DNA from: an uncultured Bacteroidota bacterium
GTDB lineage: Bacteria > Bacteroidota > Bacteroidia > Flavobacteriales > Flavobacteriaceae
Length of the DNA stretch: 64,000 bases
Direction of reading: 5' to 3'
NCBI GenBank assembly: GCA_902626585.1
Contig: CACOGA010000001.1
Location: 1 to 64,000 of the forward strand
Under the pieces are notes generated by a model that was given only the letters and a program-made list of their open reading frames with translations, did not search any database and was not told where the DNA came from. A program made the position numbers and the translations under genes. Shown here one piece after another: positions 20,117 to 42,628 of this stretch; within the stretch, counting starts at the first letter, position 1, and every line of letters starts with the position of its first letter.

Positions 20117-20130
20117 TTTTTTTATTTTTT

Positions 20131-20529: not shown

Positions 20530-20544
20530 ATTCTTAATTTTATT

Positions 20545-20814: not shown

Positions 20815-20838
20815 AGTTTTTATTAATTTGTTTTAATT

Positions 20839-21666: not shown

Positions 21667-21668
21667 AA

Positions 21669-21983: not shown

Positions 21984-21992
21984 ATAATATTT

Positions 21993-22361: not shown

Positions 22362-22363
22362 AA

Positions 22364-22621: not shown

Positions 22622-22637
22622 ATTCAAATAGAATAAA

Positions 22638-22829: not shown

Positions 22830-22839
22830 ATAACAATTT

Positions 22840-23259
22840 TTACGCTTCGTAATCCCTGGCAATTATAAATTTTGTTTTTACAGGCAGCTTTTGTGCAGCA
22901 AGCCTTAGTGCCTCTTTAGCTATATCAAGTGGGACACCACCGACTTCAAATAAAATTCTACCCGGTTTTACAACAGCAGCCCAATATTCAACAGCACCTT
23001 TTCCTTTACCCATACGAACCTCTAATGGCTTCTTTGTTATCGGCTTATCTGGAAAAATTTTAATCCAAAGTTGACCTTCCCTTTTCATATATCTTGTTGC
23101 TGCAATCCTGGCAGCTTCAATCTGTCTTGAAGTTAAAAAATTAGAATCAAGGGATTTTATACCAAACATTCCGTTAGAAAGCCTGTGACCTCTTCCAGAA
23201 TTACCCTTCATTCTTCCTTTTTGAACCTTACGATATTTTGTTTTTTTCGGTTGTAACAT
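22840..23259 (-). CDS. rplP: 50S ribosomal protein L16
   Basis: L16 (139 residues) organises the A-site side of the peptidyl-transferase region. It begins [20 protein letters not shown] and contains [20 protein letters not shown] and [20 protein letters not shown], the segment carrying the Arg81-type residue that is hydroxylated in some bacteria. It is 6 nt after rpsC. Confidence 0.98.
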
Positions 23260-23265
23260 CTTTGA

Positions 23266-23961
23266 TTAATTTCTTTTTCTTCTGTTATTTTTACCTTGTT
23301 TTTTTGAAAGACCTACAAGTGGATTTAAATCTCTTTTACCATAAACTTCTCCCTTCATAATCCAGACTTTAACACCAATTCTTCCATAAGTAGTATGTGC
23401 TTCAACCATAGCATAATCAATATCTGCCCTAAAAGTGGATAAAGGAATTCTCCCTTCTTTGTAATGTTCACTTCTAGCCATTTCCGCACCATTTAGTCTA
23501 CCGCTTATTTGAATCTTAATGCCTTCTGCATTCATCCTAATAGAGGCAGCGATAGCCATCTTAATTGCTCTTTTATAAGAAATCCTGTTTTCAATTTGTC
23601 TTGCTACGCTTGATGCAACAAGGAATGCGTCCAACTCTGGTCTTTTTATTTCATAAATATTCAACTGAATATCCTTGGATGTGATCTTTTTTAGTTCTTC
23701 TTTTAATTTATCAACTTCTTGACCTCCTTTTCCGATAATAATTCCAGGTCTGGCAGTTGTAATAGTGACAGTAACAATCTTTAAAGTTCTTTCAATAATT
23801 ACTCTTGAAATACTTGCTTTGGCTAGTCGAGCATGAACATACTTTCTAATTTTCTGATCTTCAGCTAATTTATCTCCATAATCATTGCCACCATACCAAT
23901 TAGATTCCCATCCTCTAATGATACCAATTCTATTCCCTATTGGATTTGTTTTTTGTCCCAT
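23266..23961 (-). CDS. rpsC: 30S ribosomal protein S3
   Basis: S3 (231 residues) lines the mRNA entry channel. It shows the N-terminal [19 protein letters not shown], a KH type-2 domain with [19 protein letters not shown] (about residues 77-95) and the C-terminal [20 protein letters not shown]. The basic C-terminal end ([12 protein letters not shown]) is typical. It is 4 nt after rplV. Confidence 0.98.
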
Positions 23962-23965
23962 TTAA

Positions 23966-24352
23966 TTACTTATTATCTTTTGTATTCAACACAATAGTCA
24001 CATGATTAGACCTTTTCCTAATTCTGTGTGCCCTTCCTTGTGGAGCTGTTCTAATTCTTTTTAACATTGTAGCACTATCAACTTTAATCTCATGGATATA
24101 TAGGTTAGCGTCTTCTATGTTAGCATCTTTATTTTTTGCTTGCCAGTTTGAAATTGCAGACATTAATAACTTTTCAAGTTTTCTTGATGCCTCTTTTTGG
24201 CTAAACCTGAAAATATCTAATGCCTGTTCAACATCTTTACCTCTTACCAAATCAGCAACAATCCTCATTTTTCTAGGGGAAGTAGGGCAGTTGTTAAGCT
24301 TTGCAATCGCCAAATTATTATTGTCTTTAATATTTTCTTTAGTAACAGCCAT
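23966..24352 (-). CDS. rplV: 50S ribosomal protein L22
   Basis: L22 (128 residues) lines the nascent-peptide tunnel. The core NCPTSPRKMRIVADLVRGKD and the tunnel hairpin region KRIRTAPQGRAHRIRKRSNH are present; the latter is where macrolide-resistance changes map in other bacteria, and it looks unaltered. It is 6 nt after rpsS. Confidence 0.98.
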   Translation of the reverse strand: MAVTKENIKDNNNLAIAKLNNCPTSPRKMRIVADLVRGKDVEQALDIFRFSQKEASRKLEKLLMSAISNWQAKNKDANIEDANLYIHEIKVDSATMLKRIRTAPQGRAHRIRKRSNHVTIVLNTKDNK

Positions 24353-24358
24353 AGTTTT

Positions 24359-24637
24359 CTATTTTTTTCCCTTGTTTTTAGCTCCTGCGTGACCTCTAAA
24401 AGATCTGGTAGGAGAGAATTCACCTAATTTATGTCCAACCATATTTTCTGTTATGTAAACCGGTATAAATTGCCTTCCATTATGAACGGCAATAGTTTGA
24501 CCTACAAAATCTGGTGTAATCATACTTGCTCTTGACCAAGTTTTTATAACAGTCTTTTTATTGTCCTGAATATTTTTTTCCACCTTACGGTTTAATTTAT
24601 AATGGACGTAAGGTCCTTTTTTTAATGATCTAGACAT
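24359..24637 (-). CDS. rpsS: 30S ribosomal protein S19
   Basis: S19 (92 residues) is a 30S head protein forming bridges to the 50S with S13. It begins [19 protein letters not shown] and has the signature [32 protein letters not shown]. It is 2 nt after rplB. Confidence 0.98.
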
Positions 24638-24639
24638 AA

Positions 24640-25464
24640 TTATTTATTTCTTCGTTCGATAATATATTTATTACTTTCTTTTGTTTTAGATCTAGTCCTA
24701 AATCCTTTGGCAGGGATACCTTTTCTTGATCTTGGGTGTCCTCCAGATGCTCTTCCTTCACCACCTCCCATTGGATGATCAACAGGGTTCATCGCAACCG
24801 GTCTTGTTCTTGGTCTTCTGCCTAACCATCTTGTTCTTCCGGCTTTTCCAGAAACCGTCAATTGATGGTCAGAATTGGAGACCACACCAATCGTTGCAAA
24901 ACAATTACTTAAAACTAATCTGGTTTCTCCAGACGGCAATTTGATAGTGGTAAACTTACCTTCTCTTGCCATTAATTGTGCATATGATCCAGCACTTCTA
25001 GCTAAAGTTGCACCTTTTCCAGGTCTCATTTCAATACATGAAATAACAGTACCTAGTGGTATACTTGAAAGTGGCATGGCATTACCAGTATCAGGTGATA
25101 CAGACTGACCCGAAACAATTTTCTGACCAACTTTCATACCCTTTTGAGCAATAATGTATCGCTTTTCTTTGTCGGTGTATGTGACTAGTGCTATGAACGC
25201 AGATCTATTCGGATCATATTCGATAGAAGTTACTTCACCAACTACATCAAACTTATCTCTTTTAAAATCAATAACTCTGTATCTTCTTTTATGGCCTCCA
25301 CCTTTGTACCTCATGGTCATTCTTCCCTGATTATTTCTTCCACCACTTTTTTTCATTGGCTTCAGTAGGGACTTTTCAGGTTTAGACGTGGTAACCTCAG
25401 AATATTCATTAACTATTCTAAATCTTTGCCCTGGGGTTATTGGTTTTAATTTTCTTACTGACAT
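24640..25464 (-). CDS. rplB: 50S ribosomal protein L2
   Basis: L2 (274 residues) is needed for subunit association and peptidyl transfer. The N-terminal [40 protein letters not shown] and the C-terminal [20 protein letters not shown] (containing the conserved His) followed by [15 protein letters not shown] are intact. It is 11 nt after rplW. Confidence 0.98.
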
Positions 25465-25475
25465 TATCTTAAATT

Positions 25476-25766
25476 TTAAGCGTTTGCGTATAAATCAATT
25501 GATTCTCCATCGGCTAACTGCACAATTGCTTTTTTAATAGCGTTTGTCTTTCCATACTGAATTCCAGCTTTTGTGTATCTGATTCTTCTGTCGGATCTAA
25601 CATTTATAGTTCTAACCTTTTCAACCTTCACTCCATAAGAGGATTCAATAGCTTTTTTAATTTCAACTTTATTAGCTGAATTAGCAACCTGAAAAGTGTA
25701 ACAGTTATTTAATTCGCTATCATTAGTAGCTTTTTCAGTAATAATTGGTTTAATCAAAAGACTCAT
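25476..25766 (-). CDS. rplW: 50S ribosomal protein L23
   Basis: L23 (96 residues) at the tunnel exit docks trigger factor and [23 protein letters not shown], the helix [20 protein letters not shown] and [20 protein letters not shown] identify it. It is 2 nt after rplD. Confidence 0.97.
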
Positions 25767-25768
25767 AA

Positions 25769-26398
25769 TTATTTACTTAAATTTTCATTTATACTTAATA
25801 AAGAGCTCTCTGAGATAATAAGTTCTTTAGCATTTAATATTTTATAAGTGCTTATTTCTGAACTAGTTACAACCTCAGAACCCTTAAAATTTCGCGATGA
25901 CAAATATACATTATTATTTGGTGCACCAAATACAATAAGGGATTTTTTGTCTTCGACATTTAAGGCCTTTAAAACATCAATAAACATCTTTGTTTTTGGA
26001 GCTTTAAAGTCAAAATCTTCAATAACTTTGATAGCCTTATCCTTAGCTTTTAATGTTAGTGCAGATTTTCTTGCTAATTTTTTTAGTTTTTTATTGAGTT
26101 TAACCTCATAATCTCTTGGTCTCGGACCAAATATTCTTCCTCCACCTCTGAATATACCAGATTTTATACTACCAGCACGGGCTGTTCCTGTACCTTTCTG
26201 TCTTTTAATCTTTCTTGTACTTCCTTTAATATCTGCTCTTTCTTTTGCCTTGTGAGTACCTTGCCTTTGGTTAGCCAGATATTGTTTTACATCTAGATAT
26301 AATGCATGCTCATTAGGCTCAACAGAAAAAATTTCCTTAGGAAGAGTTACTTCTCTACCAGTTTCTTTACCTTTTGAATTTAATACCGCTAATTTCAT
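25769..26398 (-). CDS. rplD: 50S ribosomal protein L4
   Basis: L4 (209 residues) reaches into the exit tunnel and, in E. coli, autoregulates the S10 operon. The tunnel loop GSTRKIKRQKGTGTARAGSI, then RGGGRIFGPRPRDYEVKLNK, is present, and the N-terminal VKQYLANQRQGTHKAKERAD is typical. Its ATG overlaps the rplC stop by one base (TAATG). Whether it regulates its own operon here is unknown. Confidence 0.98.
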   Translation of the reverse strand: MKLAVLNSKGKETGREVTLPKEIFSVEPNEHALYLDVKQYLANQRQGTHKAKERADIKGSTRKIKRQKGTGTARAGSIKSGIFRGGGRIFGPRPRDYEVKLNKKLKKLARKSALTLKAKDKAIKVIEDFDFKAPKTKMFIDVLKALNVEDKKSLIVFGAPNNNVYLSSRNFKGSEVVTSSEISTYKILNAKELIISESSLLSINENLSK

Positions 26399-27015
26399 TA
26401 CTTCTGTATTATTACATAAGAGTTTTTATGACCTGGAACACATCCTTTAACAAGTAAAAGATTTTTCTCAGGCATAACCTTTAAAACTCTTAAATTCATA
26501 ACTTTAACTTTCTCTCCGCCCATTCTACCTGCCATTTTCATTCCTTTGAAAACCCGTGCAGGATATGATGCTGCACCGATAGAACCTGGGGCTCTTAATC
26601 GGTTGTGTTGCCCGTGTGTTGCTTGACCGACTCCAGCAAAGCCATGTCTTTTCACAACACCCTGAAATCCTTTTCCTTTTGAAATCCCTGAAACATCAAC
26701 AAATTCTCCCTCCTCAAAATGATCTACACCTACAGTGTCTCCCAAGTTCAGATCCTGATCAAAACCTTGAAATTCTACCACTTTTATTTTTGCAACTGTC
26801 CCAGCTTTTTTAGCATGACCTTTAGCTGCTTTGGTAGTACTTTTCTCTGTCTTGTCATCGAAACCTAATTGAACAGCTTTGTAGCCATCAACTTCTTCAG
26901 TTCTGACTTGGGTAACAATACAAGGACCGGCTTCAATGACAGTACACGGAACATTTTTTCCGTTTTCATCGAAAATACTGGTCATTCCTACTTTTTTTCC
27001 TATTAACCCAGACAT
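26398..27015 (-). CDS. rplC: 50S ribosomal protein L3
   Basis: L3 (205 residues) reaches close to the peptidyl-transferase centre. Signatures are [19 protein letters not shown] and [31 protein letters not shown], including the Gln that is methylated by PrmB in other bacteria. Upstream is the unusually long 129-nt gap to rpsJ with a possible small ORF. Confidence 0.98.
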
Positions 27016-27034
27016 AATTTTTATTTTTTCTTTT

Positions 27035-27115
27035 TTACTCTAAAAAATTAGGGTCAAAATAATTTAACCCTAAATTATTTTTCTCCATTTTTCCTTCGCG
27101 AAACGCTCCGGACAT
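27035..27115 (-). CDS. Possible 26-codon ORF between rpsJ and rplC
   Basis: The minus strand reads ATG at 27115 through TAA at 27035: [20 protein letters not shown], then DPNFLE. The start lies 29 nt after the rpsJ stop and the stop 19 nt before the rplC ATG, fitting the tight spacing of the operon. The first eight codons are GC-richer than surrounding spacer DNA (TCC GGA GCG TTT CGC GAA GGA), unlike the A/T-rich gaps elsewhere. I know no named family for it. It could be a real small protein, a leader peptide controlling L3-L4-L23 expression, or a chance ORF over an RNA structure. Confidence 0.4.
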
Positions 27116-27144
27116 GTTAAACCAGAATTAACTGGCAGGTAATA

Positions 27145-27450
27145 TTATACCTTAATTTCTACTTCAACTCCACTCGGCAACTCTAACTTCATTAATGCAT
27201 CAATTGTTTTCGAAGAGGTACTGTAAATATCCAATAATCTCTTGTAAGAACTCAACTGAAATTGCTCTCTTGACTTCTTATTCACATGAGGTGATCTCAA
27301 AACAGTAAAAAGTTTTTTATGAGTTGGTAATGGAATTGGTCCAGTTACCACAGCACCTGTACTTTTAACTGTTTTTACAATCTTTTCAGCGGAATTATCC
27401 ACTAAACTATGATCATAAGATTTTAATTTTATTCTAATTTTTTGACTCAT
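27145..27450 (-). CDS. rpsJ: 30S ribosomal protein S10
   Basis: S10 (101 residues) is a 30S head protein that also binds NusB in antitermination. [40 protein letters not shown] and [20 protein letters not shown] identify it. It follows fusA by 10 nt; tuf, which sits here in many Proteobacteria, is absent, as is usual in Bacteroidota. Confidence 0.98.
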
Positions 27451-27460
27451 CTTTTTCTAA

Positions 27461-29590
27461 TTAAGAATCAATAGATCCATTTGCTTTTTTGATAACCTCC
27501 TCTGAAACATTAGATGGCGTAGCAGCATAGTGAGAAAACTCCATTGTTGAAGTTGCTCTACCTGATGATAGTGTTCTCAATGATGTAACATAGCCAAACA
27601 TTTCAGAAAGCGGCACATCAGCTTTAACAACTTTTGAACCAGCACGATCTCCCATATCGTTAACCTGACCCCTTCTTCTGTTTAAGTCTCCAACTATATC
27701 ACCCATATTTTCTTCAGGGGTTAATACCTCAAGCTTCATAATAGGCTCCATAATAACAAACTTGGCTAACCTGGCAGCATTTTTAAAACCAATCTTAGCA
27801 GCAAGCTCAAACGATAATTGATCTGAATCAACATCATGATAAGAGCCATCGTTAAGTGTAACTTTCATTGAATCTACTTCGTATCCAGCTAATGGTCCAT
27901 TCTGCATAGCCATTTTAAATCCTTTTTCAACAGATGGGATAAATTCTTTAGGTACATTTCCACCTTTTATATTGGAAACAAACTCTAAACCTTGCTTACC
28001 TTCATCAGCAGGTTCAACAGTGAAAGCTATATCTGCAAATTTACCTCTACCACCAGATTGTTTTTTATATACTTCTCGGTGGTCTGCTTTTAGAGTGATT
28101 GCTTCTTTATACTCAACCATTGGTTCACCTTCATTAACCTCCACCTTAAATTCTCTTTTTAATCTATCAACGATGATATCTAAGTGAAGCTCACCCATAC
28201 CTGAAATAATAGTCTGTCCAGAGGCTTCATCAGTTCTTACAGTGAATGTAGGATCTTCCTCAGAGAGCTTAGCTAAGGCCATTCCTAATTTATCAACATC
28301 AGCTTTAGTCTTAGCCTCTACAGCTATACCAATAACTGGATCTGGAAAATCCATGCTCTCCAGTACAATTGGTGCTTTTTCTGAGGTTAAACTGTCACCT
28401 GTTTTAATGTCTTTGAATCCCACCGCAGCTCCGATATCTCCAGCCTCGATTAAATCAATAGCATTTTGTTTATTAGAATGCATTTGATAGATTCTAGAAA
28501 TTCTTTCTTTTTTACCTGATCTGTTATTTAATACATATGAACCAGCAGGAAGTTTACCAGAGTATACTCTAAAAAATGCAAGCCTACCAACAAATGGGTC
28601 AGTTGCAATTTTGAATGCTAATGCTGCAAATGGTTCTTCCACAGATGGCTTTCTGGAAATTTCTTCTTGATTATCAGGGTTTGTTCCGATAATCGCATCT
28701 TTATCTATAGGGGAAGGTAAATATCTGCATACCGCATCTAACAGAAATTGAACACCTTTGTTTTTGAACGCTGAACCACATATCATTGGTATAATTGCCA
28801 TGTCCATTACGGCAGCACGCAGAGCGTTGTGAATTTCTTCTTCTGTTATTGAATCCTCATCTTCCATATACTTTTCAAGGAGATCATCATCATATGACGC
28901 AACTTCTTCGATGAGTAAGCCTCTGTATTTTTTTGCCTCTTCTTTAAGATTATCTGGGATCTCTACGACATCAAAAGTTGAGCCCATTGATTCTTCATGC
29001 CAAATAATTGCTCTATTTTTTATTAAATCAACAATTCCCTTGAAATCAGCTTCCTCACCGATCGGTAAAACAATTTGAACTGCATTTGAACCTAACATTT
29101 CTTTTACCTGTTTACAAACCATAGAGAAATTAGAACCTTGCCTGTCCATTTTATTTACAAATCCGATTCTGGGAACTTTGTAATTATCAGCAAGTCTCCA
29201 ATTCGTTTCTGACTGTGGCTCTACACCATCGACAGCACTAAATAGAAACACGAGACCATCTAATACACGAAGAGATCTGTTTACCTCAACGGTGAAATCC
29301 ACGTGACCTGGTGTGTCAATTATATTAAAGTGATAGCCCTTAGAATCGTCATTCTTTTTTCCATTGTCAGTTGGAAAATCCCAAGTACAAGTAGTAGCAG
29401 CAGATGTGATTGTAATACCCCTTTCCTGTTCTTGTTCCATCCAATCCATTGTGGCAGCACCATCATGAACTTCACCAATTTTATGAGATACACCAGTATA
29501 ATAAAGTATTCTTTCAGTAGTTGTAGTTTTTCCTGCATCAATGTGAGCAGCAATACCAATATTACGAGTATATTTTAAATCTCTTGCCAT
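27461..29590 (-). CDS. fusA: Elongation factor G
   Basis: EF-G (709 residues) drives translocation and, with RRF, ribosome recycling. The G domain has AHIDAGKT (15-22), the switch region [23 protein letters not shown] and VNKMDRQG. Domains II-V follow, ending with [20 protein letters not shown] and SHYA. It is 5 nt after rpsG. The four-gene rpsL-rpsG-fusA-rpsJ order joins str to S10 without a break. Confidence 0.98.
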
Positions 29591-29595
29591 TTGAA

Positions 29596-30072
29596 TTAGA
29601 ATCTAAAGTGTGAAAATGCTTTGTTTGCTTCTGCCATTTTGTGAGTATCAACTTTTTTCTTGACAGCGGCTCCTTCTTCTTTAGCGGCAGCTAGAACCTC
29701 AGCTGCAAGCTTTTGAGCCATTGATTTTTCATTTCTTTTTCTTGAGTAATTAATCAACCACTTCATTGCGATCGAAATTTTTCTGTCAGACCTTATTGGG
29801 CTTGGTATTTGAAAAGTAGCCCCACCAACCCTTCTACTTCTTACCTCAACATGAGGCATTACATTTGATAATGCATCTTTCCAAACATCAAGGGCAGATT
29901 TTTCATCATCAGTTTTTTTAGATTCTACAACATCAATCGCGTCATAAAATATCCTAAAAGCTGTAGACTTTTTACCACTCCACATCATCATGTTTACAAA
30001 TCTAGTAACGAGTTTATCGTTAAACTTTGGATCTGGAAGTAATGGACGCTTTTTAGCCTGCTTTTTTCTCAT
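29596..30072 (-). CDS. rpsG: 30S ribosomal protein S7
   Basis: S7 (158 residues) nucleates assembly of the 30S head. It begins [20 protein letters not shown] and contains [20 protein letters not shown] and the C-terminal [15 protein letters not shown]. It lies 23 nt after rpsL. Confidence 0.98.
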
Positions 30073-30095
30073 TTTTTATCTTTATAATTATGCAA

Positions 30096-30470
30096 CTATT
30101 TTTTAGGTTTTTTTGCTCCATACTTGGATCTTCTCTGAGCCCTTCCCTCAACACCTGCAGTATCAAGAGCACCTCGAATTATGTGATATCTTACACCAGG
30201 GAGGTCCTTTACTCTACCACCTCTGACAAGAACTATTGAATGTTCCTGAAGGTTGTGGCCTTCTCCAGGGATATAAGCATTAACTTCATTTCCATTGGTT
30301 AATCTGACCCTCGCAACTTTTCTCATGGCCGAATTTGGCTTTTTTGGTGTAGTTGTATATACACGGGTGCAAACACCTCTTCTTTGAGGACAAGAACTAA
30401 GAGCCGCAGATTTACTTTTCTTTGTAATTTTGGCTCTTCCTTTTCTTACTAATTGCGATATAGTTGGCAT
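30096..30470 (-). CDS. rpsL: 30S ribosomal protein S12
   Basis: S12 (124 residues) monitors codon-anticodon pairing. [19 protein letters not shown] holds the two lysines where streptomycin-resistance changes arise, and both are wild type. [20 protein letters not shown], which contains the Asp modified by RimO in some bacteria, is also intact. It is the first gene of the superoperon, with a 44-nt stretch to a strong promoter box. Confidence 0.98.
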
Positions 30471-30628: not shown

Positions 30629-32296
30629 ATGAATTTTATTAGAATTTACATAAAATCAGCTCTTTTTTTAATTCAAATACTTCTATCTGTCAATTTGCTT
30701 TATTCTCAAGAATATGTCTTAGAATTTACAAGCAACGAAGAAGTTTCGAAAAAAGTTAAAAAGTTTAATAATTACAGTGAGCTGATTTTATCGATTGACG
30801 ACTCATTATCCTCCATCAAAAAACAGGGATATTTTGGTGCAAAAGTTGATTCGTTTCTAAAACTAGATTCATTAAATTATCAGGTAATTATAAGTAAAAA
30901 CCAAAAGGTAAAATATGTTGATATTTTAAATAAAGATGAATTCGATGAAAACATTCTAAAAATATTAAACAACTATAGTCTGGAAAATGGGTTAGTCAAA
31001 TTTGAAAAAATTGATTCTGTTGCAAAAGAAATATCTGAAATTCTGTCTGAATTAGGATTTCCTTTTTCTGAAATTAGTTTTAAAAATTTGGAATCAATAA
31101 ACCCATTGGTTGTAAGCTTAGAAATTGATATTAATTATGGCACCAAAAGAAATATCGATAAGGTCGTAGTTCAAGGATATGAAAATTTTCCTAAAAATTT
31201 TATAAATAATATATTTAAACCAGGGAAAAATAAGTCGTTAGATGTAGATAAAGCTTTAGCTCAATCGAACATAATCGATAAAAGCAGATTCGCACGAAAT
31301 AAAAGGAATCCAGAAATTCTTTTTACTAAAGACTCTACCGCTTTGTATCTGTACATAGAAAAAATAAGAAGAAATTCATTTGACGGGTTTATTTCCTTTA
31401 ATTCAGATGAAAATTCAGGTAAAATAAATGTTGAGGGATACGCTAAAATAAGTCTTAATAATACATTTAACCTGGGGGAAAATATAAATTTTGATTTCAA
31501 ATCTCAGAAAAATCGTGACAGAGCATTAAATTCTAATATTTACCTTCCATACATTTTAGGTTCTGCACTAAATCTAAACTATGGCTTGAATTTAACCCAG
31601 AGAGATTCTACATTCACCTCTAATGAAAATATAATTGATGTCGACATGAATTTTAGAAATTTGAGAGCAGGATTAGGTTTTCAGATCAATAATTCAACTG
31701 TAGATACAGAAGCTCAGAATGTTGAAGACTTTAAAAGTAGGTCAATCAATATTTTTTCTGATTACACATTAGTTGATGATGAAGATCTACTTATTCCAGA
31801 CCTATTTAAGATTTCTTTTAGATTTGGAACAGGCCTAAAAGAACAATCTTTAGAGAAAACTAACTTTAACAAATTCTCAATTGAATTATACAAGAAATTT
31901 AATTTTTCATCAAAATTAAATTTTCAGGCAAAAATTTTCAGGGAAGAAATTAATTCAAAAAATTTGGTTAACAACGAATTGTTAAGATTCGGAGGAAGTA
32001 ATTCTATCAGAGGATTTGATGATAACAGTATTTTTACCGATGGCTACACTTTATTAAATTCAAGCCTAAATTTTTACATAAATGACACCTTATATATATA
32101 TACAATATTTGATGTGGCAAATTATAGCAATGATATATTGAATATTGAACAGGATATTTACTCTGGTGGATTCGGTTTTTCATCAGTAACCCAAAATGGA
32201 ATAGTTTCTATAAGCTATTCAAAGGGAAATAACTGGGGAAATAGATTCAACCTTAAAAATGCTAAAATTAATGTAATTTTTGCTGCTTTTTTCTGA
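30629..32296 (+). CDS. Omp85-family outer membrane protein (POTRA plus beta-barrel)
   Basis: The 555-residue protein has a signal peptide (about 1-26, ending NLLYSQ), a periplasmic region with POTRA-like strands up to about residue 240 (GTKRNIDKVVVQGYENFPKN), and a C-terminal barrel ending in Phe (INVIFAAFF). The barrel holds LRFGGSNSIRGFDDNSIFTD near residues 450-470, the loop-6 motif of Omp85/BamA/TamA/FhaC proteins. It is shorter than BamA, so it is more likely a TamA- or TpsB-like paralog that inserts or exports a surface protein. It is transcribed away from the ribosomal operon and has no obvious partner gene. Confidence 0.8.
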   Translation: MNFIRIYIKSALFLIQILLSVNLLYSQEYVLEFTSNEEVSKKVKKFNNYSELILSIDDSLSSIKKQGYFGAKVDSFLKLDSLNYQVIISKNQKVKYVDILNKDEFDENILKILNNYSLENGLVKFEKIDSVAKEISEILSELGFPFSEISFKNLESINPLVVSLEIDINYGTKRNIDKVVVQGYENFPKNFINNIFKPGKNKSLDVDKALAQSNIIDKSRFARNKRNPEILFTKDSTALYLYIEKIRRNSFDGFISFNSDENSGKINVEGYAKISLNNTFNLGENINFDFKSQKNRDRALNSNIYLPYILGSALNLNYGLNLTQRDSTFTSNENIIDVDMNFRNLRAGLGFQINNSTVDTEAQNVEDFKSRSINIFSDYTLVDDEDLLIPDLFKISFRFGTGLKEQSLEKTNFNKFSIELYKKFNFSSKLNFQAKIFREEINSKNLVNNELLRFGGSNSIRGFDDNSIFTDGYTLLNSSLNFYINDTLYIYTIFDVANYSNDILNIEQDIYSGGFGFSSVTQNGIVSISYSKGNNWGNRFNLKNAKINVIFAAFF

Positions 32297-32345: not shown

Positions 32346-32377
32346 TTTGTTTTATTAACATTAATTTATGATTTTTG
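32346..32377 (+). promoter_or_regulatory. Putative promoter of the SusC/SusD operon
   Basis: TTTG (32346-32349), a 20-nt spacer and GATTTTTG (32370-32377) match TTTG-N20-TAnnTTTG except for one base of the -7 box. The ATG of the SusC gene is 28 nt downstream. It lies in the 109-nt gap after the Omp85 gene. Confidence 0.45.
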
Positions 32378-32405: not shown

Positions 32406-35400
32406 ATGAAAACAAAGTTTAGTGGAATTTTGACGCTATTATTGGCGTTTGTTGTGCAGCTAACGTTTGCACAAGACAAAGCGGTTTCAGGAACAGTTTC
32501 TGACGAGTCAGGAATGCCTGTTGCCGGAGTAAACATTATTGTGCAAGGCACATCTTCTGGAACTCAGTCTGACTTTGATGGTAACTATAGCATCATGGTT
32601 GACGAGGGAGCAGTATTGACATTTAGTTATGTTGGATATACAACTGAATCAAGAACAGTTGGATCCTCCGACACAATTAATGTTACTATGAGCGAAGACG
32701 TAGCACAATTAGAAGAAGTAGTAGTAACTGCACAAGGTATTACGAGAGAAAGAAAAGCTCTTGGTTATGCTGTAAGTGAGGTTGCTGGTGAAGAAATGGA
32801 ACAAAGAACTGAAGGTGATGTTGCCAGAGTACTTTCTGGAAAAGCATCAGGTGTTAACATTACTAGTCAGTCTGGTACTTCAGGTTCTGCAACAAATGTC
32901 GTAATTAGAGGTTACACTTCTATTAATGGTAGTAACCAGGCACTTTTTGTTGTTGATGGTGTTCCTTATAGTACAGAAACCAATTCTCAAGGAAGTTTCC
33001 TTGGTGGTAACCTTGGTTCAAGTAGATTTTTAGATCTTGACCCAAACAATATTGAGAGTGTTAACGTACTTAAAGGTCTAGCTGCAGCTACATTATATGG
33101 TAGTCAAGGTAAGAACGGTGTTATTGTAATCACAACTAAAACCGGATCTCTTCAAGCTAAAGGACCTAAGAAAACTGAAATTAATGTAACTCAATCATAT
33201 TTTGTTAACGAAATGGCTTCTATGCCAGATTACCAAGACAAGTATGGAGGTGGATTTGACCAATCTTTTGGATGGTTCTTCAGTAACTGGGGACCTGCAT
33301 TCGCAAGAGATGGAGTTGATGGATGGGCTAACGATCCTGCAGGTATCATTGTAGATACTGACGGAGTAGGAACTGTTGAGCATCCATACGGATCATCCTC
33401 ATTCCTTAACGCATTCTTAGGTGGTAATAACGTATTAAATCAGCAATATACTGGTGAAAGATACGAGTGGAAACCTTATAAAAGTGTTGAGAACTTCTTT
33501 AGATCAGGTAGTGTTTCTAACACTTCTATTAACATAAGAGGTGCATCTGATGATGGAAACCTTTCATATACTGTTAACTATGGTAACCTCGATGAAGAAG
33601 GATTTACACCTGGTAATGGGTTAAGAAGAAACAATTTATCTGTTGGTGGACGTGCTGTTCTATCCAACAAGTTTACTGTTCAAGGTTCTATGAACTACAG
33701 TAATACATCATTTGTTTCTCCCCCTGTTGCGGCATCTAGAGGTAACGGTACATTAGGATGGTCAACATTCGGAAATGTATTCTTTACACCAAGAAACGTT
33801 GACTTAATGGGATTACCTTTTACTATTCCAGAAAACGGTGGTAGTATCTATTATAGAAATGGTAATGACATTATCAACCCTAATTGGTCTGTAGCTAATG
33901 CCCAGGGTGGTCAAACAGTTAACAGAGTTAACGCTACAACTAGTCTTACTTATGACTTTAACGACAATATATCTTTAACGTATCGTTATGGTCTTGACTG
34001 GTATAATGAAAGAAATAAAGATTATTCAAACAAAAACGGTGTAAACTTTAACGACGCTATTTTCGGGTACTTACGTACTTGGGATAACAACGTTAACATA
34101 CACAATCACTATGTAAGTTTAAACGGTAGTTATGATTTATCTGATGATGTTGGATTAGCTTTCAACGTTGGTGCTACTTCAAACAGAAGAACATATGAGC
34201 GTTCTGGTGTTTCAAGTACAGGTCAGATCGTATATGGTGTTATTCAACACTTCAACTACGAGAATCAGACCCCTTTAGCTTTTGAAAGTGCACAAAACAC
34301 ATTAGGTGTATTTGGTAGTGCTGATATTGATTACAAAGATTACTTATTTGTAACATTACAAGCAAGAAACGACTGGGTTTCTAACCTACCGTCTGAGAAC
34401 AACAGTATGTTCTACCCAAGTGCGAGTGTATCTTTCTTACCTACATCTATGGATGAGAACTTTAAGTCTGAAAACTTATCGTACTTAAAAGTAAGAGCTG
34501 GTTACGGTACTTCTGCTAGTTTCCCTGGTGGATACCCAACTGTTAATACTGTAGGTCAAAGCACAAACGTAAATGGTGGTCTTAATGGTGGTATAATTAC
34601 AAACTCTGTTAGTAATTTCCAAGCAAACCCAGATCTTAAGCCTGAGCTATTAGGTGAATTAGAATTCGGTGTTGATGCTAGAGTATGGAAAAACAGAATT
34701 GGTATTAATGCATCTTATTATGAGAGAAACACTAAAGACTTAATCGTATTTAAACCACTTCCTACATCATCTGGTTATACTTCAACTCAAGATAATATCG
34801 GTAAGATTGAAGGTAATGGTGTGGAAGTTGATGTTGATTTAGAAATGTTTGAGATTCTTCCTGTAAATGTTGATGGACTTAGCTGGAATGCTAGAGTTAA
34901 TTTCACAAAGAGTGAAAACATCGTAACAGAGCAGGCTGATGATCAAATCGTGTTTGCTGGTTCTACAGCTACATGGCTTGGAGGTAACGCTGCAATTGAA
35001 GGCGAGCCTTTAGGAGTTATTGTAGGTACAAGAATCGAAAGAGACGATAACGGTAATTTTGTGGTTAATGCATCTGGTAACTATGGTGTTGAAAACGTCA
35101 TGGCTATTGATGCTAACGGTAACGAAGTTGAATTAGGTACTGAAGGTTCAAGAACAATTACTCCTATAATTGGTAATCCTGAGCCTGATTACGTAATGAA
35201 CTTTATTAACACCTTACAGTATAAAAACTTTACTTTAGGATGGCAATTAAGCCATACTGCAGGTGGTGATATTGTTGCTAAAACAGTTGCTACATTACTT
35301 GGTCGTGGTGGTATCGTTGAAGACAGAAAGAATACTTTTATTCTTCCTGGTGTAAAAATTGATGGTACTCCAAACAACTTACAGATCAATAACTCTACTT

Positions 35401-35705
35401 ACTACTTTAGTAACGTATTATTTGGTCCACTAGAATTATCTGTATATGATGGTTCAGTTGTTAGATTACAAGAATTATCCTTGTCATATGCATTCCCACA
35501 GAAGTTCTTAGATAAAACACCATTCGGTGCATTATCTTTAACTGCAACAGGATTCAACTTATGGTATGATGCCTATAATGTTCCTGATGCGACTAACTTC
35601 GATCCAAACGTTGCCGGTGTTGGTGTTGGTAACGGTAGAGGATGGGATTTCCTTAATGGACCTAGTTCAAAAAGGTATGGTATTAGTATTAAAGCATCAT
35701 TTTAA
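32406..35705 (+). CDS. SusC/RagA-family TonB-dependent outer membrane transporter
   Basis: The 1099-residue protein has a signal peptide (1-22, ending VQLTFA), an N-terminal carboxypeptidase-regulatory-like domain (VSGTVSDESGMPVAGVNIIV, about 26-110), the TonB-box/plug region (LEEVVVTAQGITRERKALGY, then NVVIRGYTSINGSNQALFVV and DGVPY) and a beta-barrel ending GISIKASF. SusC proteins form the channel under a SusD lid and import oligomers using TonB energy. SusD follows 21 nt later. No glycoside hydrolase, polysaccharide lyase, sulfatase or peptidase flanks the pair, so the substrate cannot be guessed. Codon choice (many GGT, AAC, CTT-type codons) looks like that of a highly expressed gene. Confidence 0.95.
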   Translation: MKTKFSGILTLLLAFVVQLTFAQDKAVSGTVSDESGMPVAGVNIIVQGTSSGTQSDFDGNYSIMVDEGAVLTFSYVGYTTESRTVGSSDTINVTMSEDVAQLEEVVVTAQGITRERKALGYAVSEVAGEEMEQRTEGDVARVLSGKASGVNITSQSGTSGSATNVVIRGYTSINGSNQALFVVDGVPYSTETNSQGSFLGGNLGSSRFLDLDPNNIESVNVLKGLAAATLYGSQGKNGVIVITTKTGSLQAKGPKKTEINVTQSYFVNEMASMPDYQDKYGGGFDQSFGWFFSNWGPAFARDGVDGWANDPAGIIVDTDGVGTVEHPYGSSSFLNAFLGGNNVLNQQYTGERYEWKPYKSVENFFRSGSVSNTSINIRGASDDGNLSYTVNYGNLDEEGFTPGNGLRRNNLSVGGRAVLSNKFTVQGSMNYSNTSFVSPPVAASRGNGTLGWSTFGNVFFTPRNVDLMGLPFTIPENGGSIYYRNGNDIINPNWSVANAQGGQTVNRVNATTSLTYDFNDNISLTYRYGLDWYNERNKDYSNKNGVNFNDAIFGYLRTWDNNVNIHNHYVSLNGSYDLSDDVGLAFNVGATSNRRTYERSGVSSTGQIVYGVIQHFNYENQTPLAFESAQNTLGVFGSADIDYKDYLFVTLQARNDWVSNLPSENNSMFYPSASVSFLPTSMDENFKSENLSYLKVRAGYGTSASFPGGYPTVNTVGQSTNVNGGLNGGIITNSVSNFQANPDLKPELLGELEFGVDARVWKNRIGINASYYERNTKDLIVFKPLPTSSGYTSTQDNIGKIEGNGVEVDVDLEMFEILPVNVDGLSWNARVNFTKSENIVTEQADDQIVFAGSTATWLGGNAAIEGEPLGVIVGTRIERDDNGNFVVNASGNYGVENVMAIDANGNEVELGTEGSRTITPIIGNPEPDYVMNFINTLQYKNFTLGWQLSHTAGGDIVAKTVATLLGRGGIVEDRKNTFILPGVKIDGTPNNLQINNSTYYFSNVLFGPLELSVYDGSVVRLQELSLSYAFPQKFLDKTPFGALSLTATGFNLWYDAYNVPDATNFDPNVAGVGVGNGRGWDFLNGPSSKRYGISIKASF

Positions 35706-35726
35706 TAACGTTTAAATCAATTAATT

Positions 35727-37610
35727 ATGAAAAGAATATTTAAATATTTAATGATGACGGTCATCGCAGCTGGTACGATGTTCTACTCGTGTGAAACAAC
35801 CGAGCTAGAAGATCTGGTTAGCCCAAATGCACTGTCTCCAGATCTAGCTGATGCTGATCTGTTATTAAACTCAATCCAGGTTAACTACCTCGGAGCAATG
35901 CAAGACATGCAATATAATGGTGCTGCATTAGGAAGAATTAGTTATATGGGAGGAAGAGTTTATTATAATAACTTCAGTAGTGGTACTGTAAGTGGAGCTT
36001 GGGGTAGCTTATACTCTGGAATGCTTCCTGATATCGCTGCAATTGAAGCCCAGAATGGTGAAGATAATTTATTAGCTTTCCATTTAGGTATTTCTAAAGC
36101 TATGGCAGCTCACGTAATGATGGGCCTAGTTGACTCTGTAGGTGATATTCCTTGGAGCCAAGCTAATAACCCAGCTGAATATCCATCTCCATCTGTTGAT
36201 GATGATGCTGATGTTTATGCTGCTGCTGTTGCAATGTTAGACGAAGCTGAGTCTTATTTGAATGCCGCAGGTGGTGGTGACGACTTATTCTACGGAGGTG
36301 ATTCATCGAAGTGGATGAAGTTTGTTAACACACTAAGAATGCGTGCAATGTTAACAACTGGTGATTATGCTGGAGCTCTTGCTCAAGGTGGTGTAATCGA
36401 CACTGCAGATGCTGACATGCAATTCAATTATGGAACTCAAGAATTACAACCAGACACACGTCACCCATGGTACCAGTCAGATTATACAACTTCTGGTGCT
36501 AACATCTATCAATCTTCTTGGTTAATGGATGTAATGGTTGGTGATATCAACGAGTGGTACACTGCTCCTGTAGGATATCCTGGAATTGGAAACGAAGAAG
36601 ACGGAGCTGTTCAAAGAGCGGTTCAGTCAGATGATCCAAGAAGAAGATATTACTTCTACAGACAGGGTTGGATTACTCCTGGTCAAGCTGGTATGTTATA
36701 TGCATTTGATGCAGGTCCTTATGTATGGCCTCTTTCTTGGGGTGGTAACTTTGAGGATACTGCTAATGGTGAAACATTACAGTGTTCATTACAACTTCAA
36801 CCTTTCCATTTAGACTTCACTGAAGATGGAGGTGATGGTACAATGGTTGGAAGATGGTGTGCTGGTAAATTAGGTTACTGGGGAAGACATCATGGTAATG
36901 ACGAGGGTACTCCTCCAGATAACTTCACCAGAACAGCTGTAGGTGTTTACCCAGCTGGTGGTAGTTTCGATAACCAACCTGATGTTCCAAACTATGACAA
37001 CTATGGTTCTTTAAGTGGTACTAACGCTGGAATCAAAGGTGCTGTTTGGCAAGGTAATGGTGGTGGTGGACAAGGTATTTGGCCAATCTACCTATCATCA
37101 TACTCACACTTCATGAAAGCTGAAGCTGCAATGTGGTTGGGTGATGTTGCTACTGCAAGAGCAATGATGGAAATCGGAATGCAACATTCATTTAATAAAG
37201 TATTGTCAATGGGTTCTGTTGACCCGGACGCTGATTCTAACTACTTTGCTACTGCAACAGAAGTTAGTGACTTTATTGCAATGAAGTTAGCTGAATTTGA
37301 TGCTGCTCCTGTATCGAACACATCAGATCCACTTGCTCCTTCAACTACAAAGGATAAGTTAGACGTACTTGGTGAGCAATATTTTGTTGCTATGTATGGT
37401 GGTGCAAACGATGCTTGGAACTTCATAAGAAGAACAGGTCATCCAAGACACCTATCAAGAGGTCTTATGGATAATAATGAATCAGGATTATTCCCTAGAA
37501 CAGGTACATACCCTTCAGGAGAAATAAGTGCTAATCCAAACATCTTACAAAGACAAGATAATGCAACTCAAGTCTTCTGGGATAATGGAGTAACGAATCC
37601 TGCTAACTAA
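35727..37610 (+). CDS. SusD/RagB-family substrate-binding surface lipoprotein
   Basis: The 627-residue lipoprotein carries a lipobox with Cys22 (MKRIFKYLMMTVIAAGTMFY, then SC). It has helix-rich TPR-like regions typical of SusD (LGISKAMAAHVMMGLVDSVG, DIPWSQ; KFVNTLRMRAMLTTGDYAG) and the C-terminal GGANDAWNFIRRTGHPRHLS. It forms the hinged lid over the preceding SusC. Its size is above the usual 450-580 residues, with Gly/Asp-rich insertions around residues 365-470. It lies 21 nt after SusC and 14 nt before a third lipoprotein gene. Confidence 0.93.
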   Translation: MKRIFKYLMMTVIAAGTMFYSCETTELEDLVSPNALSPDLADADLLLNSIQVNYLGAMQDMQYNGAALGRISYMGGRVYYNNFSSGTVSGAWGSLYSGMLPDIAAIEAQNGEDNLLAFHLGISKAMAAHVMMGLVDSVGDIPWSQANNPAEYPSPSVDDDADVYAAAVAMLDEAESYLNAAGGGDDLFYGGDSSKWMKFVNTLRMRAMLTTGDYAGALAQGGVIDTADADMQFNYGTQELQPDTRHPWYQSDYTTSGANIYQSSWLMDVMVGDINEWYTAPVGYPGIGNEEDGAVQRAVQSDDPRRRYYFYRQGWITPGQAGMLYAFDAGPYVWPLSWGGNFEDTANGETLQCSLQLQPFHLDFTEDGGDGTMVGRWCAGKLGYWGRHHGNDEGTPPDNFTRTAVGVYPAGGSFDNQPDVPNYDNYGSLSGTNAGIKGAVWQGNGGGGQGIWPIYLSSYSHFMKAEAAMWLGDVATARAMMEIGMQHSFNKVLSMGSVDPDADSNYFATATEVSDFIAMKLAEFDAAPVSNTSDPLAPSTTKDKLDVLGEQYFVAMYGGANDAWNFIRRTGHPRHLSRGLMDNNESGLFPRTGTYPSGEISANPNILQRQDNATQVFWDNGVTNPAN

Positions 37611-37624
37611 TAAAAATAGAAACT

Positions 37625-38527
37625 ATGAAAAATATATTTAAATTATTATTTGCTTCTCTGTTTGTAGTTAACTTCTCATGTCATGATAGTGAAAACGTTA
37701 TTGACGGAGTGTTAGATTATGAAACTGGAGCGATATTAAGAACAATTTCTATAGATAATTCAGTTCTAAACTCATCTGAGCCTGACAGTGCATTTTTAGC
37801 AACTGTTGAAGAGCAGGATGAAGCTGACGGAGCTTTATTATCTGAGATTAGAGTAAATGCCTCTTTTAGAGACTTTTCACCTGAGAATGGAACTACAGAA
37901 GCTGAGGCTTTTGTTTATTCTATTCCTGCAAGTGAAACTACAGTAGGACCTGTAGGACTTCCTAGAGCAGACATAGCAATGACATTTGGTGCTGCTGTTA
38001 GTGCCATGGGATTAACATCAGCTGATTACAGTCCAGGTGACGTTATTGTTGTTAAGCTAGAAGTAGTTCTAACTGATGGTAGAGTATATGGACCTGATTC
38101 TGCTGCTGGTATTATTACCGGTGGATTCTTCTCATCTCCATTCCAATACAATGCATTATTAACATGTTCTCCAGCTCCTGGTGATTATGTTGTAGAAATG
38201 CAAGATAGTTATGGTGATGGATGGCAAAGTCCAGGTGGAATTGAAGTAAATATTGACGGAACTATTGTAAATGCTACATTATGTAATGCATGGGGAGACC
38301 TAGTAGATGGTTGTGTTAATGACTCAGGTAACCTAACTGATAATTATGGTGGTACTACTACTATTACTATTCCTGCGGGAACTGCATCAGCTACGTGGAC
38401 ATACACTGGAGATTCATATCCAGGAGAGGTAACTTTCCAGGTATATGGACCTGATGGAAGTATGGTTTACGATTCTGGATCAGATCCAGGACCGGGATTA
38501 CTTCCGATTGCGGTTTGTGCTGGATAG
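37625..38527 (+). CDS. Surface lipoprotein associated with the SusCD pair
   Basis: This is a 300-residue lipoprotein (lipobox Cys19, LFVVNFSCHD). The N-terminal part (about 25-185) looks like beta-sandwich repeats (LSEIRVNASFRDFSPENG). The C-terminal part (about 185-300) contains DYVVEMQDSYGDGWQSPGGI, the DSYGDGW pattern seen in many secreted adhesion-type modules, with four cysteines nearby (CSPAPG, LCNAWG, GCVNDS, and the last residues VCAG) that could form disulfides. It is in the SusC-SusD operon, filling the position SusE-type accessory binders take. I do not know its ligand. A terminator follows. Confidence 0.75.
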   Translation: MKNIFKLLFASLFVVNFSCHDSENVIDGVLDYETGAILRTISIDNSVLNSSEPDSAFLATVEEQDEADGALLSEIRVNASFRDFSPENGTTEAEAFVYSIPASETTVGPVGLPRADIAMTFGAAVSAMGLTSADYSPGDVIVVKLEVVLTDGRVYGPDSAAGIITGGFFSSPFQYNALLTCSPAPGDYVVEMQDSYGDGWQSPGGIEVNIDGTIVNATLCNAWGDLVDGCVNDSGNLTDNYGGTTTITIPAGTASATWTYTGDSYPGEVTFQVYGPDGSMVYDSGSDPGPGLLPIAVCAG

Positions 38528-38542: not shown

Positions 38543-38584
38543 AAAAAAAAAGAGCTTTGCTATTTAGCAAGGCTCTTTTTTTTT
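38543..38584 (+). terminator. Rho-independent terminator after the SusCD operon
   Basis: GAGCTTTGCTA and TAGCAAGGCTC pair (one G-T pair) around a TT-type loop, with nine A before and nine or more T after. It lies 15 nt after the stop at 38527 and should end SusCD transcripts. Confidence 0.9.
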
Positions 38585-41600: not shown

Positions 41601-41897
41601 CAGTCTATACCAATATTAACGAGCGACACATATGACTTTAATGATGATGGATATGATGATGTGATTATTGCTGGAAATATTTATAATACTGAGGTGGAAA
41701 CACCCAGATTAGACAATCAATTTGCTCTGATTTTAATTTCAGATAAAAAAAGTAATTATGGTATTGTAGCCCCAGAAAAAAGCGGATTGTATCTTTCTGG
41801 TAATACCAAGTCACTAAAGATTATAAAAGATGAAAATCCTAAGCTATTGGTTGCTAATAATAATTCAAATTTAGAGGTATTCGAATTAAATAATTAA
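38607..41897 (+). CDS. FG-GAP/VCBS repeat and ASPIC/UnbV-domain surface lipoprotein
   Basis: The 1096-residue protein has a lipobox (IFGC, Cys18) and about fourteen FG-GAP-type blade motifs with Ca-binding DxNxDG loops (DINNDGLKD, DLNNDGWLD, DFDKDGDLD, DYDNDGDED and others). An ASPIC/UnbV domain (about 510-600: NYLKVRAIGNLSESFAKGSI, HFGLGKVSKIDSMVVEWDSG) separates seven N-terminal from about seven C-terminal repeats. The C-terminal VPLRGKECSTQQMPF is typical of a Bacteroidota family often next to SusC/D genes. It is probably a beta-propeller surface protein for binding glycan or protein. Its stop overlaps the next gene by one base. Confidence 0.88.
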   Translation: MEYRVVIFIMSLTLIFGCNDGNVEKEVPFEKLSSEVTGINFANSITPNIETLENLFDYDYFYNGSGVGIADINNDGLKDILFTANQQDNRLFLNKGNLKFEDITKSSNINSKNKKWSSGVTFADLNNDGWLDVYISQGGPNSPKSRKNLLLINNQDLTFTEKAEEYGLDDSGISTQSAFFDFDKDGDLDCVVMNENEFYGYDPISFFKKYEDKSVLMKNSSHLYEQIDGKFINITQKAGLLSPTFGLGLCISDINNDNWPDIYIANDYYVKDAMYINNKDGTFTNRIKESTKQISFYGMGVDIEDINNDNLADIFVLDMASSDHVRSKTLMASMNTSNFDLITNKLDQHYQYMFNSLQLNLGNNKYHNISHQLNLAKTDWSWAGLIFDYNLDGNEDIFVTNGYRKYGSDNDSRIKINNTKKEYNNRVPLEMKKRLYDELPSEKLPNLLYKNEGNLSFKEVGNKSDLNEPSFSNGAAYADLDNDGDLEIIVNNIDEDAFIYKNLSVENKLGNYLKVRAIGNLSESFAKGSIYFENISKIKESKRVRGYLSSVSNELHFGLGKVSKIDSMVVEWDSGKKEVFYNLDANQTISVYEKDSKYVVAKEEEYQPIFSKINDFIKYNHEENEFDDFNNEILLPFKQSTLGPFISTGDVNNDGKKDIFIGGAHKQDSKIYVSNENGFIEKNIESFQNDSENEDMESVFIDIDNDNDLDLYVVSGGNEFVNRSYELSDRIYLNDGKGNFLRDPQEDLKNYTISGKTVVAIDYDNDGDEDIIVGNRIQTKKYPIHEPSIIYENISGKFYNNTYNIAPDFENFGIVNKIISTDFNNDGWDDFIAVGEWTNIGLFLNEEGTFRNINKENNLDNLFGLWFNVLETDINNDGLKDYLIGNIGQNSKYKTSIEKPLKIFGNDFDGNGTHDLVLSYKYEGNYVPLRGKECSTQQMPFISEKIPTFEEFANASIEEIYGEEIVDAYERKVTSFESIILINKGENKFEIEKLPPLAQSIPILTSDTYDFNDDGYDDVIIAGNIYNTEVETPRLDNQFALILISDKKSNYGIVAPEKSGLYLSGNTKSLKIIKDENPKLLVANNNSNLEVFELNN

Positions 41898-42628
41898 TGG
41901 AAAAAAGTACTGAAATTTACGGAATTAGAGCTGTAATTGAAGCCATCAATTCTTCAAAAGATATTGATAAAGTTTTTATTCAGACAGGGCTTAAAGGGAA
42001 ATTAATCGGGCAACTGGAATCTCTAATACGTAAAAACAAAATAAATTTTTCATATGTTCCAAATCAAAAGCTAGATAGACTTTCAAAAAAAAATCATCAG
42101 GGTGTAATTGCAAGAATCTCCCCCATTAAATTTTATGATATTAATAAATTCAGTGAAATAATAGAACAATCAAAAAATCCTTTTATCTTAATTCTTGACC
42201 AGATAAATGATGTTAGAAATTTTGGTGCTATAATTAGGACAGCTGAAATTAGTGGCGTTGATGGCATCATAATTCAAAATAGCTCATCAGCACCAATAAA
42301 CTCAGACACCGTAAAGACTAGTGCTGGAGCTATTTTTAATATTCCAATTTGTAAAGTAAGTCATATAAAAGACGCGATTTATCATTTGAAATCAATAGAT
42401 ATATCTATCATTTCAGCTTCTGAAAAATCAAAAAAAAACATTTATGATGTCGATTTTAGGAGACCTTTAGCCATAATAATGGGGTCCGAACAAAGAGGAA
42501 TCAATAAATCTATTTTAAATATGTCTGATGAAATGGTAAAACTTCCAATGTATGGGAAAATTGAATCACTAAATGTTTCGGTTGCCTGCGGTATTTTTCT
42601 TTATGAAGTAGTAAGACAAAGAATTTAA
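41897..42628 (+). CDS. rlmB: SPOUT 2'-O-methyltransferase, RlmB (23S rRNA Gm2251)-like
   Basis: The 243-residue protein has an N-terminal substrate-binding domain (EIYGIRAVIEAINSSKDIDK) and a SpoU/TrmH domain with ILDQINDVRNFGAIIRTAEI, IMGSEQRGI and ESLNVSVACGIFLYEV, the trefoil-knot SAM site. The layout matches RlmB, which methylates the 23S P-loop; other TrmH-family rRNA targets are possible. The start is TAATG-coupled to the ASPIC lipoprotein, and the last 4 nt overlap the convergent HAD gene. Confidence 0.88.
   Translation: MEKSTEIYGIRAVIEAINSSKDIDKVFIQTGLKGKLIGQLESLIRKNKINFSYVPNQKLDRLSKKNHQGVIARISPIKFYDINKFSEIIEQSKNPFILILDQINDVRNFGAIIRTAEISGVDGIIIQNSSSAPINSDTVKTSAGAIFNIPICKVSHIKDAIYHLKSIDISIISASEKSKKNIYDVDFRRPLAIIMGSEQRGINKSILNMSDEMVKLPMYGKIESLNVSVACGIFLYEVVRQRI

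Follow-up and report, generated by a model that had tools for sequence, protein, structure and literature searches.

We analysed a stretch of 64,000 nucleotides (the window; positions 1 to 64,000 of contig CACOGA010000001.1, assembly GCA_902626585.1) from an uncultured marine bacterium of the Flavobacteriaceae, whose genome is 1.49 Mb long and 86.6% complete. The window carries three adjoining genes, here called the trio, for a SusC-type transporter, a SusD-like lid and a third lipoprotein (Table 1). An earlier note, made from the sequence alone, had placed a SusC/SusD/lipoprotein operon at this site, and three open reading frames (ORFs) of 1099, 627 and 300 amino acids (aa) were indeed found in this order on the + strand, separated by only 21 base pairs (bp) and then 14 bp. 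The terminator that it had read on the downstream side was also recovered, as a hairpin of 42 bases with a T run, and none of 200 shuffled sequences was as stable. Our results showed that the trio is a real, conserved and enzyme-free SusCD-lipoprotein set and not a polysaccharide utilization locus.

Table 1. Features of the trio and its surroundings, with the evidence used to assign them
Feature	Position in window	Strand	Evidence
Omp85/ShlB-type barrel protein, 555 aa, between rpsL and SusC, outside the trio	30629..32296	+	PF03865, E 2.3e-06
Conserved upstream element	32347..32377	+	Element counts in relatives' loci
Conserved leader CTAATTCAAAT before the SusC start codon	32386..32396	+	Leader counts in relatives' loci
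SusC-type TonB-dependent transporter, 1099 aa	32406..35705	+	TIGR04056, clade-profile match, plug loop, trees
SusD-like lid lipoprotein (SusD-like_2), 627 aa	35727..37610	+	PF12771, predicted model, fold matches, signature
Third component, 300-aa lipoprotein, predicted two-domain beta-sandwich (Ig/FN3-like)	37625..38527	+	Position after SusD, predicted model
Intrinsic terminator of the trio	38543..38584	+	-23.4 kcal/mol, z -6.73
FG-GAP/UnbV_ASPIC lipoprotein, 1096 aa	38607..41897	+	PF13517, E 2.3e-65; PF07593, E 3.7e-15
rlmB, right border of the conserved slot	41897..42628	+	TIGR00186 over cut-off; synteny

The transporter scored above the TIGR04056 cut-off (E 9.9e-157, about 524 bits versus 368.25) and contains CarboxypepD-like, plug and barrel domains. 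The lid exceeded the PF12771 cut-off (E 1.6e-30), its Cys22 was invariant across 56 aligned SusDs, and its predicted model reached a predicted local distance difference test score (pLDDT) of 81.6 and a predicted template modelling score (pTM) of 0.88. It had been called oversized, and full-length SusDs within the genus are indeed long (627-648 aa, versus mostly 540-625 aa in other genera), the extra length lying mostly in segments that are gapped in most of 29 divergent relatives. The 300-aa lipoprotein, described earlier as unrecognised, matched no family in Pfam or NCBIfam, and its sequence profile gave no convincing match to solved chains in the PDB. Its predicted model (pLDDT 85.0, pTM 0.72) matched only beta-sandwiches of a common arrangement (Z up to 9.4), mostly over residues 31-182, which did not identify the protein.

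The window has 60 ORFs of at least 100 aa, and the Pfam scan covered 35 of them, including the six at or around the trio and all but one of those to its right. No degradative carbohydrate-active enzyme (CAZyme), sulfatase, hybrid two-component system, anti-sigma factor or extracytoplasmic function sigma factor was found among these 35, in line with the claim that the window holds no degradative enzyme or regulator. The claim did not stand for peptidases: an M23 peptidase is encoded at 58556-59707, about 20 kb from the trio, a distance too great to matter. Of the 25 ORFs outside the scan, 23 lie within 13861-30470, which we took for a ribosomal-protein block, judged from its position, the S4 leader, L17 and the sequences. 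The S4-Flavobacteria ribosomal protein leader (RF03141, 15498-15529, - strand) was the sole Rfam match at the gathering threshold in the window.

Conservation of the trio was followed in three sets of loci. Searching a collection of species genomes with patterns derived from a SusD alignment yielded 537 relatives, and the best 80 of these 537 were kept. Genes were then clustered across these best 80 named loci, 16 loci from relatives and 33 regions of a phylum sample, the last corresponding to 34 of 36 match places (the window's own and G290 were left out). SusC stood directly 5' of SusD in 75/75 named, 16/16 relative and 31/33 phylum-sample loci that could be tested (122/124 overall), and the lipoprotein directly 3' of SusD in 78/79, 13/13 and 29/33 (120/125 overall); the median gaps within the trio were 13-25 bp. 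These sets overlap, with at least four genomes counted twice (L049/L059, L050/L057, L096/L171 and L102/L170), and some genomes contribute two loci that were kept in the counts (e.g. L075/L086 and L077/L107). The slot between rpsL and rlmB holds the trio in most Flavobacteriaceae loci that are long enough to tell, and in other families of the phylum sample the trio stands among unrelated genes. The trio is a conserved slot, not an oddity or an accident. Judged by titles and the beginnings of abstracts, none of the open-licence papers listed dealt with this slot or with the trio as such, and excerpts of PMC9122927, PMC8319329, PMC6298971 and PMC2668756 gave background only.

In five Flavobacterium-like genomes (L180-L184), of a genus taken for Flavobacterium because of its GH18 chitin locus, SusCD-type pairs, one or two per genome, are the only large genes between the barrel gene and rlmB; in L183, one partner of 526 aa remained unlabelled. 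Five of the six SusCs in these slots fall into the same large clade as the window SusC, and most of the pairs are more distant and without the lipoprotein. The slot SusCDs of L180-L184 belong to differing subclades, as if they had been exchanged in place. Three Saprospiraceae metagenome-assembled genomes (L114, L123 and L125) carry trio-type SusDs 49-51% identical to the query, like many flavobacterial ones, and each of these trios lies near genes of the pdxJ and integrase clusters. The SusC of L114 groups inside the flavobacterial SusCs in a tree that does not include L123 and L125. The sequences suggest lateral transfer or misbinning of these three trios.

The upstream region of the trio is also conserved. 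The upstream element reads TTG-N3-TATTAAC-N6-TTATGATTTTTG and agrees with TTG-N17-23-[T/G]AnnTTTG. Promoters of the flavobacterial sigma-A type have a TTG at -33, at a defined spacing. Their -7 consensus is TAnnTTTG, according to an excerpt of PMC9723704. The element would fit a promoter of this type whose -7 motif opens with G instead of T. In its relaxed form it was found in 74/79 copies at rpsL/rlmB loci, in 6/32 others and in 0/79 control pieces (115-base pieces taken 185-300 bp upstream of the same 79 loci); the strict promoter form was found in 46/79, 7/32 and 1/79, and the leader before SusC in 75/79, 4/32 and 0/79, respectively, counts that overstate the independent evidence because many of the genomes are close relatives. 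Within the window's genome, the element was exact only once, at this locus, with one further match at three mismatches and one control hit. A conserved element resembling a promoter, and the absence of a local regulator from the ORFs scanned, would be compatible with the constitutive expression assumed earlier, and are no proof of it. The conserved spacer could be a regulator site.

The trio was also compared with the other SusC loci of the same genome. Seven SusCs exceeded the cut-off, and the window SusC scored lowest (523 bits versus 705-946). Five of the other six adjoin GH13/SusE, sulfatase, GH3, GH59-like and GH5/CBM6 genes (GH, glycoside hydrolase; CBM, carbohydrate-binding module), and the sixth adjoins a protein that was placed by clustering in one group with the GH3 one. 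These loci have the SusC-SusD pair in common with the trio and differ from it by their adjoining enzymes. The window SusC is the only orphan among the seven. Family scans of the relatives gave the same picture: no CAZyme, the gene that marks a polysaccharide utilization locus when it lies next to susCD, was found among the window ORFs or the trio neighbours scanned, and the sole peptidase among those neighbours was an M1 peptidase 71 bp 3' of the trio in L139.

An orphan of this kind might be the remnant of a polysaccharide locus after enzyme loss. According to an excerpt of PMC6499787, roughly half of the susC/D loci surveyed lack a known CAZyme and their cargo is open, and such loci are hence common. 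Against this, the genes of the trio are tightly spaced and kept in many genera, here in a 1.5-Mb genome, and we rejected the remnant as highly improbable in view of intact, conserved genes that have mostly retained the upstream element.

The closest solved relative of the transporter was found with a profile of 38 trio SusCs. BT_2264 scored 571.6 bits, 260 bits ahead of the next solved chain (311.9 bits), and RagA scored 241.6 bits. BT_2264 belongs to the oligopeptide importer Bt2261-64 of Bacteroides thetaiotaomicron (5fq6). In trees of 78, 83 and 89 sequences, which took in 56 of the 118 trio SusCs, BT2264 and all of these 56 formed one clade (support 0.992-0.999) that excluded the genome's own six enzyme-locus SusCs. 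Alignment showed a plug loop of 30 residues in the window SusC, 31 in BT2264 and 14 in 8aa4; the loop had at least 28 residues in 117 of the 118 trio SusCs and was missing in its long form from RagA and the 5t3r SusC. According to an excerpt of PMC7782687, Bt2261-64 holds oligopeptide ligands, and contact with ligand is possible for the long Bt2264 plug loop. Bt2261-64 further resembles the trio in having one or more extra lipoproteins beside SusCD and a SusD of similar fold, although its match is tied with those of other SusDs. The third lipoprotein of the trio could not be related by sequence to any solved chain. The oligopeptide importer RagAB has the pedal-bin SusCD type in common with the trio and differs in the low score of RagA, the lack of a long plug loop and a RagB Z of only 18.2 against the SusD model.

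The earlier note had preferred a system that takes up a ready-made oligomer to a polysaccharide utilization locus, and our results support this. The trio recurs in many genomic contexts, and the neighbours scanned included a single peptidase and no CAZyme; enzymes accompany the genome's six other SusC loci, and the window SusC clusters with BT2264 to the exclusion of those six. The trio is likely an importer of a ready-made oligomer. For the fuller reading, a dedicated outer-membrane importer of a small oligomer, long conserved and with its own promoter-like element, we see about an even chance. In its favour are the conservation of the trio, the profile match to BT_2264, the clade, the plug loop, the VIA-align scores of the SusD model given below, the M1 peptidase of L139 and the conserved upstream element. 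Our best guess for the cargo is oligopeptides, which we hold somewhat tentatively; the next guess is a specific amide- or amino-sugar-containing oligomer. As a best guess, peptides rank ahead of both amino-sugar oligomers and a single specific ligand.

Several observations weigh against this reading. Only 30 of the 392 sampled phylum genomes, our own included, carry a trio-type SusD (E <= 1e-60), and because of this count the trio-type SusD is widespread, far from universal. The M1 peptidase occurs in one locus only. Five chitin-locus SusCs, with plug loops of 35-36 residues, fall inside the BT2264 clade, and two enzyme-locus SusCs of the same genome are also long-looped (29 and 33 residues). 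The earlier note had asked whether the SusC would cluster with a polysaccharide-specific clade, and the answer was mixed, since the genome's own enzyme-locus SusCs lie outside the clade and the chitin-locus SusCs inside it. The BT2264 clade leaves the cargo unsettled because chitin-locus SusCs group there too; membership would mean "importer of this type" and not "peptide". Peptide specificity read from clade or plug loop alone was dropped in view of the chitin-locus control and the two long-looped enzyme-locus SusCs.

The comparisons of SusD were in part also against a simple peptide assignment. By VIA-align, the top matches of the SusD model were tied (BT2259, Z 30.2; BT2033, 29.7; BT2263, 28.9), followed by Fjoh_4561 (27.9) and others just below, with archetypal SusD (18.4) set apart together with RagB. 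The order of Foldseek E-values was BT2259 and then mixed-linkage-glucan binders, with BT2263 at rank 11. The SusD sequence profile was nearest to the chitin-binding Fjoh_4561 (6.7e-28; BT2263, 1.1e-16). With the sequence profile, Foldseek and VIA-align each pointing to different proteins, the nearest characterised SusD gave no clear guide to the cargo. The last point is the conserved SusD signature described below, which argues for one specific ligand over mixed peptides.

The chitin-locus SusCs inside the clade, the profile match to Fjoh_4561 and the glycan-binding proteins among the best SusD fold matches would suit a glycan importer with its enzymes elsewhere, which takes up chito- or other oligosaccharides made by other loci or organisms. 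The chitin utilization locus of F. johnsoniae (CusC/CusD; excerpt of PMC5127042) is the known system to compare: SusCs of Flavobacterium-like GH18 loci share the broad clade and the long plug loops with the trio, but they belong to a different SusC subclade, and in the chitin locus chitinase genes lie beside the transporter genes. No CAZyme was present among the neighbours scanned or among the 35 window ORFs scanned, and the other SusCs of the same genome keep their adjoining enzymes and lie outside the clade. We consider a glycan importer unlikely.

The trio SusDs carry a signature, DPRxRYYFYRQ ... GYWGRxHGxxxG(I/T)PPD ... GVYPAGGxFD, which was judged on 29 divergent SusDs from several families and another class and is largely kept at 27-40% identity. 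A few SusDs deviate from it, e.g. L168 and the second copy in L159. The GYWGR...PAGG segment was unaligned in the four solved SusDs compared, BT2263 not being among them, and the DPR part was partly aligned in three. This segment may line the SusD pocket. Because the signature is largely kept down to such low identity, it is the best hint of one specific conserved ligand.

Two neighbours of the trio on which the earlier note was silent, the FG-GAP/UnbV_ASPIC protein directly 3' of the terminator and the upstream Omp85/ShlB-type barrel, were followed through the relatives. In named loci with enough flank, the frequent partners of the trio were UnbV (46/69), a family of about 250 aa called c8 (45/69) and arylsulfotransferase-like (ASST) genes (26/69), with DUF6503 in 6/69. 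These partners are rare in the phylum sample (UnbV 2/30, ASST 3/30, c8 4/30). UnbV as an obligatory operon member was rejected, as it lies in the same-strand run downstream of the trio in only 46/69 named, 7/11 relative and 2/30 phylum-sample loci with enough flank. In ten loci UnbV is on the other strand, farther downstream (L058, L059, L060, L062, L066, L092, L099, L113, L131 and L049, where L049 and L059 are one genome and L099 has no rlmB label). It is missing between the lipoprotein and rlmB in three of the nine same-genus loci that show both (L043, L044 and L048). Scans of ten phylum-sample neighbours found, besides the M1 peptidase of L139, genes for a chromate transporter, for 2-oxoglutarate dehydrogenase and for an OmpA/PD40 protein; L167 contributed one sulfotransferase and one arylsulfotransferase-like gene, and three neighbours matched no family. 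UnbV and ASST genes were also found near trios far from rpsL (L114, L123 and L125, partly on the other strand, L157 and L167), which hints that they are functionally, if loosely, tied to the trio. The open-licence literature yielded no paper joining ASPIC, UnbV and SusD.

Together with the conserved signature, these distant UnbV and ASST-like genes would speak for an importer of one specific ligand that is not bulk food (a chelated metal, a cofactor, a sulfated phenolic or similar), with the UnbV propeller and arylsulfotransferase-like proteins as surface helpers. On the other side, no ASST match was found in the window's genome at its 86.6% completeness, the helper genes vary by locus, with UnbV absent from the same-genus loci named above, and no cofactor or metal gene was seen beside the trio. 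We regard this alternative as doubtful, and below the glycan importer in probability.

Some further observations concern the surrounding genes. The ASST cluster comprises L057:12892-14535 and 30 further members near trios, and two of three members scanned have a type IX secretion tail. The c8 family (e.g. L069:16123-16878; also L071 and L101) has 62 copies spread over 46 loci, frequently side by side in tandem, with four copies upstream on the other strand in L101; one member scanned had no Pfam match, and profile comparison did not relate the family to the DUF6503 group. The Omp85/ShlB-type barrel is 27-71% identical in relatives and evolves much faster than its neighbours on both sides. Loci of the Maribacter/Muricauda type have no gene of the barrel cluster between rpsL and SusC. 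The divergent operon upstream of the barrel gene presumably begins with rpsL, rpsG and fusA, which we named from sequence. Two adjacent genes of the DDAH/arginine deiminase type lie at 6738-8585 on the - strand.

A further SusC-SusD-third lipoprotein set is the SusCDE of F. johnsoniae, Fjoh_0403-0405. According to an excerpt of PMC12611786, a 2025 study, its function is unknown and it ranks as one of the two most abundant components of that species' outer membrane. In the Flavobacterium-like L182, the slot holds SusC, SusD and a 253-aa protein. The trio is a possible equivalent of Fjoh_0403-0405; this stays a lead, and the 253-aa protein of L182 is unmatched by the lipoprotein profile. The trio may also correspond to SusCD complex C of Muricauda Bin2 (PMC7029141), a possible link through L133 (Allomuricauda sp. 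isolate Bin2) on which none of our conclusions depends, and THC0290_2100/2101 of F. psychrophilum (PMC9723704) is a further candidate.

The direct observations on the trio comprise its gene order, family membership, conservation, enzyme-poor context, clade, plug-loop length and conserved upstream element; transport, a three-part complex and high basal expression are what we infer. As an oligomer importer, the trio would consist of a SusC barrel powered by TonB, with SusD as its lid and the third lipoprotein at the cell surface. A small oligomer, present in sea water or freed by enzymes made elsewhere, would pass to the periplasm by the "pedal-bin" route, in which the lid opens, the ligand binds and the lid shuts. 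The ligand may then touch the long plug loop, and TonB would pull the plug.

The same chromosomal spot in many related bacteria suggests a housekeeping uptake system. A bolder form of this idea is a housekeeping system of the Bacteroidota for a single specific ligand, of which the SusD signature (GYWGRDHG...GIPPD form) would be the mark. In the Flavobacteriaceae it would sit beside translation genes under a family-conserved promoter, with UnbV/ASST-like helpers, and it would form a SusCD class apart from glycan and mixed-peptide importers. We consider this rather unlikely, placing it between the glycan importer and the narrower specific-ligand importer. In conclusion, the trio offers a tractable case among the SusCD loci without enzymes, as its fixed slot, conserved element and SusD signature can be used for spotting it in genomes, metatranscriptomes and metaproteomes. 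If it is true that such a SusCDE ranks among the two most abundant flavobacterial outer-membrane components, as reported for F. johnsoniae in the excerpt of PMC12611786, its cargo would explain a large share of the uptake capacity.

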